DNA of 64,000 bases from assembly GCF_904846215.1 (NCBI RefSeq), contig NZ_CAJGZK010000005.1:1-64000 (forward strand), written 5' to 3'. The notes under the pieces are model-generated. The model was not told the origin of the DNA. It ran no database searches and saw only the letters and a list, made by a program, of their open reading frames with translations. Of this stretch, positions 56,395 through 63,919 are shown one piece after another. This DNA comes from Psychrobacter glacincola. Its GTDB lineage: Bacteria > Pseudomonadota > Gammaproteobacteria > Pseudomonadales > Moraxellaceae. The first letter of the stretch is position 1. Each line of letters opens with the position of its first letter. The translations under genes were made by a program, and so were the position numbers.

Positions 56395-58296
56395 TTAGAT
56401 ATGAGCAACTACTTGTGCTGTTCTAGCCTCTATATGATTGATTATAGGCTGAACCAGACAAGCAATACTATCTTCTTGCTCATTTGCTAATGGCTCAATA
56501 ATACTTGTCTTAGGCGATACCGCTAGATTTGGATAATCTTTACGATAATGACCACCGCGACTCTCAAGGCGTTGATAAGCCGATTGAACGATTAAAGTCG
56601 CTAATTGTAGTTGTCGCGCTAACTGAAAATTGGCTAACTGATTCGAGCTCTTAGAACTGTGCACACTACTTATATTGGACTGATTGGCTTTAGCGTTGAC
56701 TAGCTGTTGCTGCCACTGCTGAATTTGCTTAAGCGCTTGCTCTAACTGCTCAGCACTGCGACTGATACCCATGTTATTGGTCATTAATACTTTGAGCTGG
56801 GCGGTTATTTCAAGAAGCTCATTATCAGTGTTTAATTCGTTCTCTAATTCGTTCTTTAATTCGTTATGCTTATAAGTAGAAAATAAAGGCAGAGTGGCGG
56901 TAGATAATATAACGGGCTGGGTTTCTTTTAGTATTGGCGGTGTCCATATATCAATAGCTGGCTGTTCTATATTAATATCATAGGAAGTTGTCGCTGGTTT
57001 TTCCATCGCTGTTAAATAGCGCGGTAAGCTGGCAGCGATATTGCGACCGACCACCACACATTCTAATAACGAATTACTTGCCAAGCGATTTGCACCATGC
57101 AAACCCGTGTAAGCAACTTCGCCAGCCGCATAAAGCCCTGCCACATCGGTTACGCCATTGGCATCAGTGACCACGCCGCCGCAACTATAGTGCGCGGTCG
57201 GGGCAACAGGGATTGGCTCCCTAGTCATATCGATACCGAGATTGAATAATGTTTGATAAATTTGCGGAAAATGCTGCTGTAAAAATACAGCTGGCAAGTG
57301 ACTGACATCAAGATGTACGTAGCCAAGCCCATTATTATTGATCTGCTCAGCTATTGCGCGGGCAACGATATCTCGCGGTGCAAGTTCAGCGCGCACATCA
57401 ACATCAAGCATAAAGCGTTTGCCAGATTGAGGGCAGTAAAGCCGACCGCCTTCGCCGCGTAAGGCTTCCGATATTAAAAAACTACTATCGTCCAGTGCCA
57501 GCCCCGTCGGATGAAACTGGATAAATTCTAAATTTGCCAAACGGCAACCTGCCTGCCATGCCATGATGACGCCATCACCGACACAGACGTTGGGCGCGCT
57601 GGCTCGTTGAAATAATTGCCCTAAACCACCACTGGCTAAAACAACTGCGCGACTATAAAAAGTGAGTTGACGCTGACTGCTATGATCAAAAACTTGTGCC
57701 CCTTGGCATCGGTTATCACTGTTATCAGTTAATAAATTCAGTGCTTCGTGGTAGGGCCGTATACTGATATTAGACGCCGCTTTCGCCTTTAAAATCAAAG
57801 CTTCCATAACGTAGCGACCTGTCGCATCATCAGCATGGGCAACGCGTCTACAGCCATGACCGCCTTCTTTGGTTAAATGTAAATCTGCAGTTTGTAGTTC
57901 AGTGAAAGATTTTTTGTTAATTTCTTGAGCAATCTGGGTAAAAGGCACGCCTTGCTCGCACAGCCATTGAACGGCTTGCTGTCCAGCGCTCAAAATACTG
58001 GCTGTATTATCTGCCGCACATAATCCTGCACCCGCGATGAGTGTGTCGGCAATATGGTCAGCAACTGAATCGTTTTTATCTAAACTTGCGGCGATACCAC
58101 CTTGGGCATAATGGCTTGAGCAGACTTCAAGTTCAGCTTTGCTTAATAGAGTAACGCTCAGCGACTCTGGTAAAGCAAGCGCGGTACTTAGTCCTGCCAG
58201 CCCTGCACCAATGATGAGCACATCTGTCTTTATGATAGCATCAAGGTTCTGATGCACATCACAGTTGTCTTTAGCGTTTGACCAAATCGCGCTCAT
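56395..58296 (-). CDS. nadB: L-aspartate oxidase
   Basis: 633 aa from the ATG at 58296, chosen because GGAG lies nine bases upstream and it starts one base after the nadA stop; longer readings to 58329 overlap nadA. It oxidises aspartate to iminoaspartate with FAD, the first step of de novo NAD synthesis. Motifs: VLIIGAGLAGLSTALALP (FAD), SSHYAQGGIAA, GGHGCRRVAHADDATG and AHYSCGGVVTD. The family is ~540 aa; the excess is a hydrophilic insertion around residues 420-530 with short Asn-Glu-Leu repeats (12-bp units at 56833-56868). It is co-transcribed with nadA. Confidence 0.95.
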   Translation of the reverse strand: MSAIWSNAKDNCDVHQNLDAIIKTDVLIIGAGLAGLSTALALPESLSVTLLSKAELEVCSSHYAQGGIAASLDKNDSVADHIADTLIAGAGLCAADNTASILSAGQQAVQWLCEQGVPFTQIAQEINKKSFTELQTADLHLTKEGGHGCRRVAHADDATGRYVMEALILKAKAASNISIRPYHEALNLLTDNSDNRCQGAQVFDHSSQRQLTFYSRAVVLASGGLGQLFQRASAPNVCVGDGVIMAWQAGCRLANLEFIQFHPTGLALDDSSFLISEALRGEGGRLYCPQSGKRFMLDVDVRAELAPRDIVARAIAEQINNNGLGYVHLDVSHLPAVFLQQHFPQIYQTLFNLGIDMTREPIPVAPTAHYSCGGVVTDANGVTDVAGLYAAGEVAYTGLHGANRLASNSLLECVVVGRNIAASLPRYLTAMEKPATTSYDINIEQPAIDIWTPPILKETQPVILSTATLPLFSTYKHNELKNELENELNTDNELLEITAQLKVLMTNNMGISRSAEQLEQALKQIQQWQQQLVNAKANQSNISSVHSSKSSNQLANFQLARQLQLATLIVQSAYQRLESRGGHYRKDYPNLAVSPKTSIIEPLANEQEDSIACLVQPIINHIEARTAQVVAHI

Positions 58297-58297
58297 A

Positions 58298-59437
58298 TTA
58301 TGCTGCTCCAACATTTGCAAACAGCGCACGATCTTTGACGATATCGCCGCTTGCTGCTACCCGCTGTTTTTGTGATTCAGCAAAATCAAGCATACGTTGT
58401 AATGGTTTTTTAGCGGCTATCGCTAGCTCAGGCGTCATCAAAACTTCACCGCTCCGCTGTGTCAAGCATTGCTCAATACCTTGCAACCCATTCATTGCCA
58501 TCCATGGACAAAAAGCACAGCTCTTACAGCTGGCACTTTCACCAGCCGTCGGCGCTGCCAAGAAGCGCTTGTTTGGTGAGCGCTTTTGCATCTCATGTAA
58601 TATTCCTAAGTCAGTTGCGACGATAAAGGTATCGGCATCCATCTCATAAGTGGATTGCAGCAGCTTACTGGTCGAGCCAACCACGTCGGCAAGCTCCACG
58701 ACACTATCTGGAGATTCAGGATGTACCAATACTTTTGCTGTCGGATATTCAGCTTTTAATTGTTCAAGCTCAGTGGCTTTAAACTCATTATGTACCATAC
58801 ATGAGCCTTGCCATAGCAGCATATCTGCGCCAGTCTCACGCGCAATATATTTACCCAAATGTCTATCAGGACCCCAAATGATAGGCTCGCCTTGCGCATG
58901 CAAATGACGAACAATATCAATGCCCACCGATGACGTCACCACCCAATCTGCCCGTGCTTTCACTGCCGCGCTGGTATTGGCATAAACCACCACCGTACGC
59001 TCAGGATGAGCATCACAAAAGGCAGAAAATTCATCGGCAGGGCAACCCAAGTCAAGCGAGCATTCCGCTTCCAAGTCTGGCATAAGCACGGTTTTTTCCA
59101 TACTGAGTATCTTTGCCGATTCGCCCATAAAACGTACGCCAGCGACGACCAATGTCTGCGCACTATGCGCTTGACCAAAGCGCGCCATCTCAAGCGAATC
59201 ACCAACACAGCCGCCTGTCGCTAATGCCAAATCCTGAATAAAGGGATCGACATAATAATGCGCGACTAAGACGGCATTATGCTCTTTTAACAACTGCTTA
59301 ATATTTTCTTCAACTTGCAGTCGCTCACTACGCGGCAAGTCTGCGGGCATTTTTGCTTTGGCATATTCAATATTCATTTGCGTGGCAATGCGATTATCAG
59401 TACTCATAATCGGTGCGTCATACGGATACGTTTTCAT
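58298..59437 (-). CDS. nadA: quinolinate synthase
   Basis: 379 aa (E. coli 347). It condenses iminoaspartate with dihydroxyacetone phosphate to quinolinate, using a [4Fe-4S] cluster. Motifs: [38 protein letters not shown] (cluster Cys), WQGSCMVH (Cys) and [13 protein letters not shown] (Cys-rich third site). It is upstream of nadB and the two are nearly adjoining. A palindromic operator overlaps its predicted promoter at 59523-59550. Confidence 0.96.
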
Positions 59438-59522
59438 AAGTACAAGCCTTTAATGCAATAACGACAAATCATCTGCCGCTAAAAGTGAGTCAATAAATAC
59501 CGCTAAAAAATAAACTGTTTTA

Positions 59523-59550
59523 ATTATGCTCATTTTGAGCATAAATACAA
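59523..59550 (-). promoter_or_regulatory. predicted nadA promoter overlapping the operator
   Basis: Minus strand TTGTAT, 16-bp spacer, CATAAT, reading toward nadA ~90 bp away. The NAD operator palindrome fills the spacer and overlaps the -10 box, as expected for a repressor. Confidence 0.55.
59524..59544. promoter_or_regulatory. NAD-regulon operator upstream of nadA
   Basis: Perfect palindrome: TTATGCTCA, spacer TTT, TGAGCATAA. The same sequence with two changes in one half occurs before nadC (62974-62994). A site shared only by NAD genes, with a NadQ/NrtR-type regulator between them, points to that regulator as the ligand. Inference, not shown. Confidence 0.7.
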
Positions 59551-59592
59551 GCAGTTTTTTATACGTTTATTATTTATGCAGGACTCATTTTG

Positions 59593-59598
59593 TATAAT
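59593..59598 (+). promoter_or_regulatory. possible -10 box of the original nadQ-side promoter
   Basis: TATAAT on the plus strand, ~60 bp from the nadA operator, reading toward the regulator gene. The -35 region is poor. The IS605-type element now lies between it and the regulator. Confidence 0.3.
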
Positions 59599-59694
59599 TA
59601 CAAGCACAAGCTATGATAAGCATCGATTCAAGCTGTCAAAAAGCGAAAGAGGACTCCAACCGAGCTAGTGTGGAGATGAATTTCGTATTTGTTT

Positions 59695-60093
59695 TTAGCC
59701 TTGTTGATTTTGAATATAATGCTTAATAACCTCCAATGACGCCCCACCACAAGACCCTGCAAAATATGAGCGAGACCAAAGTACAGGCTTGGAATAAGCC
59801 CCTCTTAAATCCAAAAATTCACCCCTCATTCGTCTACTTGTGACTGACTTCAGGTTATTAACCAACCTGCTCAATTGCACGGTTGGTGGGTACTGAATAA
59901 GAATGTGAATATGATCAGCCTCGCCATTGCACTCCTTTAGTTCGGCATCGAATTTTTTGCATATCTCGGCGACACACTCATGGAAATAATTGTGATGTAC
60001 CTCGCCAAGCACCTTCTTTCGATACTTGGTAATAAAAATCAAGTGAACATGAAGATTGAAGGCAGCATGGCGATTTTTATATATCTCACTCAT
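59695..60093 (-). CDS. tnpA: IS200/IS605-family Y1 transposase TnpA
   Basis: 132 aa, normal length. HUH endonuclease with the His pair H61/H63 in DHIHILIQYPP and catalytic Tyr126 in VIKHYIQNQ. The N-terminus FNLHVHLIFITKYRKKVL is typical of the IS200 family. It cuts and joins single-stranded DNA at the element's hairpin ends. It looks intact. It is divergent from tnpB, which starts ~75 bp away. Confidence 0.95.
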   Translation of the reverse strand: MSEIYKNRHAAFNLHVHLIFITKYRKKVLGEVHHNYFHECVAEICKKFDAELKECNGEADHIHILIQYPPTVQLSRLVNNLKSVTSRRMRGEFLDLRGAYSKPVLWSRSYFAGSCGGASLEVIKHYIQNQQG

Positions 60094-60167
60094 TGCAATA
60101 AAAACTCTTAAATGCTAGCATTATATTGATAATATCAAATACATACTCATTAATAAAGAGAGTATTT

Positions 60168-61472
60168 ATGAAGATCAACAAGGCGTACAAATTTAGGCTT
60201 AAGCCTAATGCGGAGCAACAGGTTATTCTAAATAACCTTGTTGGCTCTGCGCGTTTTGTTTGGAATCAAATGTTGGCAATCTCGCTTGAGATGTTTGCTA
60301 AAAATGAGTTTATTAATGCGACCAATCTCGTTAATAAAATCATGGAGGTTAAGAATAATCCTGATTTTGAGTTCTTAAAAACCCACTCAAATGCGGTGTC
60401 CTTACAGCAAAAGATTCGTGATCTAGCCTCGGCTTGGTCGCGTTTCTTTGATCCTAAAGTTCATATCAGGTTAAAAGAAAATAAGAAGAAACCTAAAAAA
60501 GCCAAGTTCTTTAAATTAGCTGATGGCACAGAAATTCAGCTACGCCCGTTGATGCCAAGATTTAAGCGTAAATCTGATGGCCGAGATTCAATCAGGTTGG
60601 TTCAGTTTGATAAATACTGTCGTGTTGAAGGCAGTCGTATCAAACTGCCTAATGGCATTGGTTTGGTGAAATTTAGAAAGTCGCAAGATATTATCGGCAT
60701 CATCAAAAACGTTACCATTAGCAAGAAATCGGGGCACTGGTACGTATCGTTTGGCACTGAACGCGAAGTTGAAAACCCACGCCACCCTGCTACCAGCGCA
60801 CTAGGTTTGGATTTGGGCATCACAAAGCTGATCACCACCTCAAACGGTGTGACCATCAAACCAAAGAATAGCTTTAAAGCCAATCAAGTGAAACTTGCTA
60901 GATTGCAGCGCCAGTTGGCAAAGAAAGTGAAATTCAGTGAAAACTGGAAAAAGCAAAACGGTAAGATTCAAAAATTGCATCATCATATCGCCAATGTTCG
61001 CCATGACTACTTGCATAAAATCACAACCACACTCAGCAAAAGCCACGCCATGATTGTCGTTGAAGATTTAAAAGTCAGTAATATGTCGAAATCAGCCAGC
61101 GGGTCGATGGAAAACAAAGGACGTAATGTCAAAGCCAAGTCGGGATTGAATAAATCAATTCTGGATCAAGGTTGGGGCATGGCGCTTGATATGCTTGAGT
61201 ATAAACAGCACTGGCGCGGTGGGTTGCTGATCAAAGTAAATCCAAGATTTACCAGCCAAACCTGCCTTAAGTGCCAACATGTTGCTGTCGATAACAGACA
61301 AACTCAGTCAAGATTTGAGTGCGTCAAATGTGGTTATATTGCGAACGCAGATTTCAATGCTGCGCGTAATATATTAGCGGCAGGGCATGCCGCTTTGTCT
61401 GTGGAGGGAGGATGCAGTAAAGGTCGCCCGATGAAACAGAAAACTTGTGACACTTGTGAGAAAGTCACCTAA
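60168..61472 (+). CDS. tnpB: TnpB (IS605 OrfB) RNA-guided nuclease
   Basis: 434 aa from the ATG at 60168; a reading from 60126 would add 14 atypical residues. N-terminal MKINKAYKFRLKPNAEQQ is the TnpB wedge/REC start. RuvC residues are present: D215 in LGLDLGITK, E299 in VVEDLKVSNM and D395 in NADFNAARN. A zinc ribbon CLKCQHV ... CVKCGY lies before the last motif. Known TnpB proteins use an omega-RNA from the element's right end to cut DNA next to a TAM. All catalytic residues are intact. Confidence 0.95.
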   Translation: MKINKAYKFRLKPNAEQQVILNNLVGSARFVWNQMLAISLEMFAKNEFINATNLVNKIMEVKNNPDFEFLKTHSNAVSLQQKIRDLASAWSRFFDPKVHIRLKENKKKPKKAKFFKLADGTEIQLRPLMPRFKRKSDGRDSIRLVQFDKYCRVEGSRIKLPNGIGLVKFRKSQDIIGIIKNVTISKKSGHWYVSFGTEREVENPRHPATSALGLDLGITKLITTSNGVTIKPKNSFKANQVKLARLQRQLAKKVKFSENWKKQNGKIQKLHHHIANVRHDYLHKITTTLSKSHAMIVVEDLKVSNMSKSASGSMENKGRNVKAKSGLNKSILDQGWGMALDMLEYKQHWRGGLLIKVNPRFTSQTCLKCQHVAVDNRQTQSRFECVKCGYIANADFNAARNILAAGHAALSVEGGCSKGRPMKQKTCDTCEKVT

Positions 61473-61531
61473 GAGCTAACGCTTTTAGAATCCCACACTT
61501 GAGCTTTTCGAAAGTGGCGGGAGTATGTCAA
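61473..61531 (+). ncRNA. likely omega-RNA 3' scaffold / IS right end
   Basis: The stretch after the tnpB stop contains the right-end hairpin (CCCACACTT ... AAGTGGCGGG) and ends at TGTCAA. In studied IS605-type elements the omega-RNA spans the tnpB 3' end and the right end, with the guide taken from the flanking DNA, here from 61532 onward. Family-based inference. Confidence 0.5.
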
Positions 61532-61604
61532 ACTGAGCATATGGTCAAGAGCTTATCAGTTGATCTTTATTTCATAATTAAAATAAAAGGTAATCATTAA
61601 CGTC

Positions 61605-62726
61605 ATGACGTTGTCATATTCACATGCGCATCAACAAGGTAGCGGCACGACTGAAGTTGTCGCAGTACTGGTTGCGATTACGGAGCACACGGCGCGCGTT
61701 TTAACCGTTGATCAAGGCAAGCTACTGCCCAATGGTCCACTGATGCCACTACACCGCTCATTGCAAGCAGGCGTGCGCCAATGGGTTGAAGAGCAAACAC
61801 AGCAGCCACTGGGTTATTTGGAACAGCTATATACCTTTGTTGACACCAATAGACGCAATGATGATGGTCATGCGCTGGTCTATGTCAGCTATTTGGGATT
61901 GGTACAAGAAACACAAACGCAGCTACAAAGCCAAGCCTTATGGCGTGAATGGTATGATTATTTTCCATGGGAAAATCATTTAGATGGTATGCCAGTTATC
62001 ATTATGGAACATATCGTACCGGCGTTATTACGTTGGGCAGATGACGCAAGAGAGCCTGATATTCAGCAGCGTCGGTGTCAGCGTATTGGTTTATGTTGGG
62101 GCGTCAGTGAGACGGTTCTAAATAAATCCTCTCAAAATAAAAGCGTATTTTCAAATAAAGAGATAAACAATAAACCAATAAATAACCAAGAATACGAGAA
62201 TAGGGAATACGAGAACAGAGAATGGGTTGCAGAACATGTCCTTCTGCGCTATGAGATGCTCTATGAAGCAGGTCTTATTGCAGAAGCACCGACTTATCCG
62301 CCAAGCTATTTGTCAAATTCTCAATCTGGTAATGCTCAATCTGTCAATTCTCAATCTAACAAGGCGTTTAAATTGTCTGATAACTGGTCACAGTTTATAG
62401 GGTCGCCGATGTACTATGACCATCGCCGAGTGATTGCGACGGCCATCTCAAGGCTACGTGCAAAAATTGAATATCGTCCGCTCATTTTCGGCTTAATGCC
62501 AGATGTATTTACCTTGTCGCAGTTGCAGCAAAGCGTCGAAGCTTTATCTGGTGTGCCACTACATAAGCAAAACTTCCGTCGGCTACTCGAGTCGCAAAAT
62601 CTTGTACTAGAAACAGGGCAGAGTAGCAGCGCTCAGCGTGGTCGCCCTGCCAAGCTTTATCGTTTTCGCCATGATATTGAGCTGCAAAGTTTACTGATGG
62701 ATAGCAAATTGCCCAAGCGTAAATAG
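61605..62726 (+). CDS. nadQ: NrtR/NadQ-type transcriptional regulator of NAD synthesis (Nudix-like)
   Basis: 373 aa. The N-terminal ~130 residues look like a Nudix-fold domain (VVAVLVAITEHTARVL ... YLEQLYTFVDTNRRNDDGHALVYVSYLGLV). The catalytic Nudix box is degenerate (VRQWVEEQT where RELxEETG is expected), so it is probably a ligand sensor, not an enzyme. The C-terminus has a winged-helix region (FTLSQLQQSVEALSGVPL, then RGRPAKLYRF) like NrtR and COG4111/NadQ. An Asn/Ser-rich linker with EYENR and NSQS repeats lies between. Flanked by nadBA and nadC with a shared operator. The name is by family resemblance and context. Confidence 0.65.
   Translation: MTLSYSHAHQQGSGTTEVVAVLVAITEHTARVLTVDQGKLLPNGPLMPLHRSLQAGVRQWVEEQTQQPLGYLEQLYTFVDTNRRNDDGHALVYVSYLGLVQETQTQLQSQALWREWYDYFPWENHLDGMPVIIMEHIVPALLRWADDAREPDIQQRRCQRIGLCWGVSETVLNKSSQNKSVFSNKEINNKPINNQEYENREYENREWVAEHVLLRYEMLYEAGLIAEAPTYPPSYLSNSQSGNAQSVNSQSNKAFKLSDNWSQFIGSPMYYDHRRVIATAISRLRAKIEYRPLIFGLMPDVFTLSQLQQSVEALSGVPLHKQNFRRLLESQNLVLETGQSSSAQRGRPAKLYRFRHDIELQSLLMDSKLPKRK
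62190..62219 (+). repeat. 15-bp tandem repeat in the nadQ-like gene
   Basis: Two units of GAATACGAGAA(T/C)AG(G/A) encode EYENR-EYENR in the linker. A related Asn/Ser/Gln repeat (NSQSGNAQSVNSQS) lies near 62317-62358. Both are in frame. Confidence 0.8.
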
Positions 62727-62748
62727 CCGCCCAATCTCTATCAGGCTC

Positions 62749-62894
62749 TATAGTCAGCTCAAAATAAAAGCGATACGATTGTAATAACGTGCTATTGGCT
62801 ATAATTTTTCTTGCTTGCTGTTCGCAGGCGTGACAGAGGCTGCAAAAAATTTGTAGCCAATAGCACTGATCGTTTTTAAAATGAATCGACTCTA
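62749..62894 (-). repeat. TATAGT-type palindromic element, copy 10
   Basis: Starts TATAGTCAGCTCAAAATAA and ends AATCGACTCTA, so one end base is changed. Arms GTGCTATTGGCTA and TAGCCAATAGCAC are perfectly complementary (13 bp). The core is reversed (CTTGCTTGCTGTTCGCAGG ... GACAGAGGCTGC). It lies between the nadQ-like gene and nadC. Confidence 0.85.
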
Positions 62895-62945
62895 TCATCA
62901 TTAAATCTTATAAATTTATTGAAAATTTTAATTTATGATATTTTC

Positions 62946-62974
62946 TTGCGAGACAATAAACTTTACGTTATATT
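62946..62974 (+). promoter_or_regulatory. predicted nadC promoter
   Basis: TTGCGA, 17-bp spacer, TATATT, ending exactly where the operator at 62974 begins. Transcription would start within the operator. Confidence 0.5.
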
Positions 62975-62994
62975 TATGCTCATTTTGAGTTTAA
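62974..62994. promoter_or_regulatory. NAD-regulon operator upstream of nadC
   Basis: TTATGCTCA, TTT, TGAGTTTAA: the left half and spacer are identical to the nadA site and the right half differs at two positions. It is ~65 bp before the nadC start, at the likely transcription start. Confidence 0.68.
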
Positions 62995-63058
62995 ATAAAG
63001 AAGATTTATCATAATAGACGTATATATCAGTTAAAGACACGCAAAATAAGGACCAAAA

Positions 63059-63919
63059 ATGACAATGAAACAAGAGCCAGCATTGGCTGAAGTATTGCTT
63101 AAACCTTTGGTTGAGTTGGCATTAACAGAAGACTTAGGCAGGCGCGGTGATGTCACCTCCCAAGCGACTATTCCAGCAGACATGCAAGCGCAATTACAGA
63201 TTAAAGCGCGCCAAGCAGGCGTGATATGTGGTATGGATTTAGCGCGCTTATCTTTTGCCTTGATTGATGCAGAGATCGAGTTTATTGCGCACGTCCATGA
63301 TGGTGAGACGGTCGAAGCAGGCACAGTGTTAGCGATTGTACGCGGCAATGCGCGTAATCTGCTGACTGCAGAGCGTACAGCGCTCAACTTTATGACGCAT
63401 CTCAGTGGTATTGCGACCGATACCAAAAAGATTGTCGATAGCGTGGCAGAATATCCCGCGCAAATTACTTGTACCCGTAAAACCATTCCAGGCTTACGTA
63501 TCGTCCAAAAATACGCGGTACGCTGTGGCGGCGGACGCAATCATCGCTTAGGGTTAGATGATGCGATTTTAATTAAAGACAACCATATTGCCATTGCAGG
63601 CGATATCAAAACAGCCATTAAGCAAGCGCAAGACTTTGCTGGGCATTTGATTCCAATCGAAGTGGAAGTCGATACATTAGCGCAGTTAGAGCAAGCGCTT
63701 GATGCTGGCGTGAGTTTGGTACTTTTGGACAATATGGCGCCTGAGATATTGTTGCAAGCCGTCGCTATGTGTCAAGGTCGAGCTAAAACCGAAGCATCAG
63801 GTGGTATCACCCCTGAAACCGTGCAAGCCGTCGCAAAAACAGGCGTAGATTTTATCGCGATGGGTTATTTGACGCATAGCACGACTGCACTCGATATCGG
63901 TCTTGATTTTAGCGCATAA
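63059..63919 (+). CDS. nadC: nicotinate-nucleotide pyrophosphorylase (quinolinate phosphoribosyltransferase)
   Basis: 286 aa, normal length. It converts quinolinate and PRPP to nicotinate mononucleotide, CO2 and PPi. Motifs: LTEDLGRRGDVTS, AERTALNFMTHLSGIAT, CTRKTIPGLRIVQKYAV, RCGGGRNHRLGLDDAILIKDNH (active-site Arg/His/Lys, shown in part here) and EASGGITPETV. AAGGACC before the ATG supports the start. It completes the pathway begun by nadB and nadA. Confidence 0.96.
   Translation: MTMKQEPALAEVLLKPLVELALTEDLGRRGDVTSQATIPADMQAQLQIKARQAGVICGMDLARLSFALIDAEIEFIAHVHDGETVEAGTVLAIVRGNARNLLTAERTALNFMTHLSGIATDTKKIVDSVAEYPAQITCTRKTIPGLRIVQKYAVRCGGGRNHRLGLDDAILIKDNHIAIAGDIKTAIKQAQDFAGHLIPIEVEVDTLAQLEQALDAGVSLVLLDNMAPEILLQAVAMCQGRAKTEASGGITPETVQAVAKTGVDFIAMGYLTHSTTALDIGLDFSA

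Follow-up and report, generated by a model that had tools for sequence, protein, structure and literature searches.

The closest described counterpart of the locus considered here is the NadQ regulon (COG4111), for which the available portion of the published account (PMC5343134) describes regulators in alphaproteobacteria and in several beta- and gammaproteobacteria, gives nadABC as the core targets and ttATRCTCannntGAGYATaa as the operator consensus, and states that nadQ is often clustered with nadABC. A related family is NrtR (Nudix-related NAD regulator; NAD, nicotinamide adenine dinucleotide), which has a homologous winged helix and a Nudix-like fold. Insertion sequences (ISs) of the IS200/IS605 family are described, in the available portion of PMC8612924, as inserting 3' of a short target and leaving it unduplicated. 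Here we analyze a 64,000-nucleotide stretch of Psychrobacter glacincola DNA (contig NZ_CAJGZK010000005.1, positions 1 to 64,000; termed here the window), in which a nadQ gene accompanies nadA, nadB and nadC. Our conclusion, to which we assign a probability of about 0.9, is that NadQ controls nadBA and nadC through two operators. The family of the regulator, the match of the operators to the consensus, their conservation, their overlap with promoter-like hexamers and the recurrence of two sites per genome were computed here; from these we infer binding, repression and a ligand. The regulon is of an already known kind, and what the window genome adds to it is a nadQ leader interrupted by an IS. 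A sequence-only reading of the window had proposed a candidate NAD regulon at this place, and the proposal is supported by the present analysis.

The window locus shares with the NadQ regulon, as set out in the available portion of PMC5343134 and in the Agrobacterium tumefaciens structures (7q91-7q94), the regulator family, the operator consensus, the nadABC targets and the clustering of nadQ with nadABC; it differs in having two recurrent operators, in the position of nadQ between divergent nadBA and nadC, in variable linkers within the protein and in the IS200/IS605 element in the nadQ leader. According to the proposed mechanism, NadQ would act as a Nudix-like, ligand-sensing transcription factor whose winged-helix end would bind both the palindrome at nadA and a weaker-looking copy at nadC; bound NadQ would obstruct RNA polymerase at the two promoters and so bring nadBA and nadC under joint control. 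The features concerned are collected in Table 1.

Table 1. Positions of the nad genes, predicted regulatory sites and inserted element within the window.
Feature	Position	Strand	Remarks
nadB, L-aspartate oxidase	56395..58329	-	TIGR00551, 520.2 bits vs cut-off 452.75
nadA, quinolinate synthase	58298..59437	-	TIGR00550, 354.9 bits vs 262.9; PF02445
NadQ operator at nadA (predicted)	59524..59544	.	perfect palindrome
Left part of conserved block upstream of nadQ	59611..59636	+	CTATGATA, later GATTCAAGC, then TGT (relatives TAT); cut by IS
IS200/IS605 element, 1895 bp	59637..61531	.	3' of (C)TAT target (here CTGT), no target duplication
tnpA, Y1 transposase, 132 aa	59695..60093	-	PF01797, NF033573
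tnpB, RNA-guided nuclease family, 434 aa	60168..61472	+	NF040570, 302.5 bits vs 100; PF01385, PF07282
Right part of nadQ leader	61532..61604	+	starts ACTGAGC, remainder of split TATACT; runs to nadQ start
nadQ, 373 aa; Nudix-like sensor, C-terminal winged helix	61605..62726	+	
nadC promoter-like TTGCGA-17-TATATT	62946..62974	+	promoter scan
NadQ operator at nadC (predicted)	62974..62994	.	changed right half GAGTTTAA; overlaps last base of -10-like hexamer
nadC, quinolinate phosphoribosyltransferase	63059..63919	+	TIGR00078, 331.3 bits vs 198.4

On the evidence of sequence comparison and a structural model, the regulator gene of the window encodes NadQ (COG4111), in agreement with its earlier description as NadQ-like. 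Its best match among solved structures in a phmmer search is Agrobacterium NadQ (7q91), with an E-value of 1.4e-78, the matching stretches (residues 14-167, 206-232 and 265-371) covering both the sensor and the winged helix. The segment LHKQNFRR is identical in these two proteins and is invariant in 23 aligned NadQ sequences from the genus Psychrobacter, from Caulobacter and from metagenome bins. An AlphaFold2 model of the window protein (mean predicted local distance difference test score 75.4) superimposes on the Agrobacterium apo, ATP, NAD and DNA entries with Z scores of 27.1-28.9 and root-mean-square deviations of 2.2-2.5 over 262-286 aligned residues. The solved NadQ entries contain ATP, NAD and DNA, and the title of a 2022 paper (Minazzato 2022) calls NadQ ATP-responsive. 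Within the genus, the length and sequence of two linkers (at about residues 170-206 and 233-260) are highly variable, and the model predicts these linkers poorly. A literature search, which did not extend to the supplementary tables of the published regulon, found no work linking NadQ with Psychrobacter.

The operator beside nadA is a perfect 21-bp palindrome, TTATGCTCA-TTT-TGAGCATAA (0 mismatches), and the copy beside nadC, TTATGCTCATTTTGAGTTTAA, departs from it by two changes. Both sites had been picked out in the sequence-only reading and both stand, as do its nadA and nadC assignments, the calls for nadB, nadA and nadC all passing curated cut-offs. Scored with the R/Y consensus in the available portion of PMC5343134, the nadA site has 0 mismatches and the nadC site 1, at a capital-letter position (A to T). 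A third match in the window, with three mismatches (58995-59015), lies within the nadA coding sequence; shuffled versions of the window contained a mean of 0.07 motif matches, and none of 100 shuffles reached three. When the whole genome (3,247,549 bases) was scanned, no sites with two or fewer mismatches were found beyond those at nadA and nadC.

Elsewhere in the genome there are four sites with three mismatches, compared with two for a reversed-pattern control, and because of this comparison three-mismatch sites were not accepted as targets, that is, as extra members of the regulon in this genome. One such site lies inside nadA (58995); on other contigs, such sites are found within L003, a frame judged by eye to be potassium-uptake-like, and upstream of two genes, of RNase H/exonuclease type at L005 and of StiP type at L006. 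One of the four (C11:49614, L005) has two mismatches under the R/Y scoring (consensus from the available portion of PMC5343134), and a third NadQ target may exist at L005 or L006. The operator-like site at L005:1501-1521 is positioned 28 nt ahead of the RNase H/exonuclease reading frame.

Conservation was examined in NadQ loci from named genomes, taken as the best 80 of 189, those at 60-82% identity being Psychrobacter and the other 13 showing 37-41% identity. Many of the genus loci are duplicates, in that the same genome is present in two collections; 97 loci (96 plus one added) yielded 71 distinct nadA-nadQ spacers and 72 distinct nadQ-nadC spacers. The order nadA, divergent nadQ, nadC is found in all 96 genus loci having nadA and nadQ, and nadB follows nadA in 67 of 67 longer loci (shorter loci mostly stop before nadB). 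The nadA operator has 0 mismatches in 54 of the 71 spacers and one in the remaining 17, while the nadC operator has one mismatch in 5 of the 72 spacers, two in 65 and three in 2. Half-site columns at nadA average 1.92 bits, versus 0.73 in the flanks (71 spacers); at nadC they average 1.91 bits, versus 0.58 in a flank that excludes the ten bases ahead of the operator. When 66 of these Psychrobacter loci, longer ones that total 722,271 bases, were scored with the R/Y consensus from the available portion of PMC5343134, 132 sites with 0-2 mismatches were revealed, an average of two per locus. This genus-wide conservation supports the predicted operation here of proteobacterial NadQ control, as a small, two-operator regulon. 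The nadA-nadQ spacers of six loci (L029, L070, L030, L078, L082 and L084) measure 493-669 bp, above most others, and contain no match to the window IS transposases.

Both operators overlap promoter-like hexamers that are conserved within the genus; the sequence-only reading had placed the two sites at the predicted nadA promoter and the predicted nadC start site. On the minus strand, a -35-like TTGTAT (59550-59545) precedes the nadA operator, which itself overlaps a -10-like CATAAT (59528-59523); both hexamers were identified by eye and are absent from the promoter-scan matches, and in the genus alignment the operator is again found behind a conserved CTTGT and overlapping CATAAT. The nadC operator shares the last base of the TATATT hexamer, which is 17 nt after TTGCGA and was detected by the promoter scan, a scan that overall gave 8 sites versus 10.0 in shuffles. 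In most relatives TTGC (-35) and TATATT (-10) occur at a fixed distance from the nadC operator.

The size of the regulon was explored in 80 genus genomes, the window genome included. Pattern sites are present in 78 of these and NadQ likewise in 78, most genomes having two sites each. The two genomes lacking both, G049 (83% complete) and G075 (99%), also lack nadA; nadC is absent from G049 and is reduced to a 33-residue remnant in G075 (G075:C2:64856-64954, L159), which suggests that the latter has lost de novo NAD synthesis. This joint loss supports the link between NadQ and the sites, though not as an independent test, because the whole pathway has been lost.

Two observations weigh against control of nadBA and nadC by NadQ through exactly these two operators. 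First, the right half-site at nadC is off-palindrome in every locus examined, and because this departure holds throughout, the affinity of the predicted nadC operator may be low. Second, at one mismatch or fewer, 15 of the 80 genomes reach a count of three in one or both orientations, as against 2 with any control match. A widespread occurrence of the motif at unrelated genes, which the sequence-only reading had named as refuting, was looked for and not found; the third site in part of the genus qualifies this result. Seven extra sites among the matches listed are a single recurrent sequence, TTATGCTGAGCATGAGTTTAA; both genomes inspected have it within a citrate synthase gene (one named through Pfam, the other by like sequence), and another inspected extra site lies inside a BCCT transporter gene, so that all three inspected extra sites fall within reading frames.

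The gene said in the sequence-only reading to lie between the two operators is indeed nadQ; that reading missed, however, the IS200/IS605 element that also lies there, between the nadA operator and nadQ. The element has a Y1 TnpA and a TnpB, and it sits 3' of a short target that was not duplicated. In these respects (small Y1 TnpA, TnpB, mode of insertion) it resembles ISDra2 and IS608 as covered by the available portion of PMC8612924, from which it differs in its target, (C)TAT rather than TTGAT or TTAC. Its edges were set from related copies in other genomes and from empty sites in two relatives, G119 (92% NadQ identity) and G057 (89%). For the left end 26 rows were collected and 23 used, three (L126-L128) having no recognizable left end; these ends read CTAT|C in 18 of the 23 and TAT|C in the remainder, and right ends read GTCAA in 23 of 23. 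Both relatives carry AAGCTATACT uninterrupted, in place of which the window reads AAGCTGT, the IS and then ACTGAGC, with no duplicated target and with the CTAT target altered at one base, A to G. This CTGT (59632-59636), where relatives have CTAT, may have immobilized the IS or spoiled the target motif of TnpB. One copy of the IS was found in this genome; a related element is matched in at least 31 of the 80 genus genomes (window genome included, top three candidates per genome scored), the best other match being 83% identical. Neither transposase has a match above 35% identity in the 96 loci of relatives.

The insertion point, as judged from the empty sites, splits a TATACT box (TAT|ACT) belonging to a conserved block. 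The core of this block, WTCRNGYTATAMT, occurs in 65 of the 71 distinct nadA-nadQ spacers, in none of the 71 on their opposite strand, in none of the nadQ-nadC spacers (0/71) and in none of 20 shuffled sets; the spacers without it are those of L090, of the divergent L096-L099 and of L113. The core ends 67-75 nt before nadQ in 46 of the 65 cases, the others ranging from 53 to 244. Per-column information for the core was discarded, being partly fixed by the anchoring pattern, and was replaced by these controls and by an alignment not anchored on the core, in which ATTC, G and TATACT are present in at least 90% of spacers. A half-site, TGAGCATA, located just right of the IS (61534-61541), was considered as the remnant of a cut operator and rejected because the uninterrupted leader of G119 has it without a left half and none of nine aligned relatives has a complete copy.

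Its conservation and its place ahead of nadQ suggest that TATACT is a nadQ promoter element; we infer this role, rather than assign it, because there is no evident -35 hexamer and because another conserved box, TATGAT, precedes TATACT by 16 nt. Given that the IS splits TATACT within a conserved block, nadQ is probably expressed differently in this strain: the element has inserted into the block upstream of nadQ and would thereby have changed nadQ expression, and we hold an effect on nadQ expression to be somewhat better than an even bet. Several findings count against such an effect. No recognizable -35 hexamer accompanies the TATACT box, and the promoter scan misses the intact box in G119. 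Moreover, nadQ is intact, with low ratios of nonsynonymous to synonymous substitution (dN/dS) of 0.072 to G119 and 0.112 to G057; among ten nadQ pairs the window-G057 value is the highest (the others being 0.065-0.082), but this elevation is not specific to nadQ, since nadA and nadC also have their highest values in this pair. (Branch counts assuming G057 as the outgroup were not used, as the dS values do not support that rooting.) The IS may affect nadQ expression little, or it may have inserted recently.

The best-surviving alternative, which bears only on the IS and not on the regulon, is that the insertion is neutral: the nadQ promoter would be the TATGAT left of the IS or would lie in the remaining leader, or read-through from tnpB would suffice. 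The intact, constrained nadQ and the resemblance of TATGAT, itself conserved, to a -10 box favor this, whereas everything upstream of the IS is now displaced 1.9 kb from nadQ and the promoter scan finds no site in 61473-61604 (although the same scan misses the box of G119); on balance we regard neutrality as a serious contender falling a little short of even odds. Considerably more doubtful is the proposal that the IS, by severing the nadQ promoter at TAT|ACT, has rewired the NAD switch, with nadQ behind tnpB and NadQ made only from read-through of tnpB and the guide RNA. If this were true, the predicted TnpB guide would correspond to the nadQ leader, TnpB could cut chromosomes with an intact nadQ promoter, and such cutting would maintain the rewired allele. 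The strain amounts to a natural experiment, in which a transposon parts nadQ from the conserved block ahead of it and leaves the two target operators undamaged, and it could reveal how strongly NAD synthesis responds to the quantity of its repressor.

With regard to the operators, it is very improbable that the palindromes are RNA hairpins or terminators, or sites of another regulator, with NadQ a bystander. The palindromes are able to fold, and NadQ binding to them is predicted; however, the window site matches the consensus in the available portion of PMC5343134, and the nadC site stays at a constant distance from the promoter-like hexamers but lies 28 to 189 nt, depending on the relative, from the start of the nadC match. 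Furthermore, in 6 of the 13 distant loci one to three sites with 1-4 mismatches occur just downstream of nadQ; the other seven, all Caulobacter, have no sites, and nadA, nadB and nadC are undetected in the stretch covered. An Rfam scan of 59400-63100 gave no credible RNA family, its single match reaching 22.8 bits, below the cut-off of 50.

Least probable of all is that the regulator is an NrtR-type repressor sensing ADP-ribose: its winged helix matches the Pfam NrtR_WHD domain and the NrtR structure 3gz5 (E 4.1e-12), but this sequence match is limited to residues 264-358, the sensor end and the operator are those of NadQ, the NCBIfam NtrR/NrtR model (ADP-ribose responsive repressor equivalog) fails at 61.5 bits against a cut-off of 400, and the fold Z score to NrtR is 17.1, as against the far higher scores to NadQ given above.

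Of 149 genomes from the wider family, 73 contain a match to the protein, many at the winged helix only (E 8e-7 to 2e-16); these winged-helix-only matches may be NrtR-like, and two further genera show matches at both protein ends. Beyond these, NadQ with nadA/nadB neighbors and operator-like sites occurs in metagenome bins named Acidobacteria, Acidimicrobiia and Holophagales (L103, L105 and L106), which lie outside the Proteobacteria and for which mis-binning or transfer is possible. Two or three operator-like sites stand in tandem downstream of nadQ in two alphaproteobacterial bins (L104:5963-6083 and L108:6119-6168).

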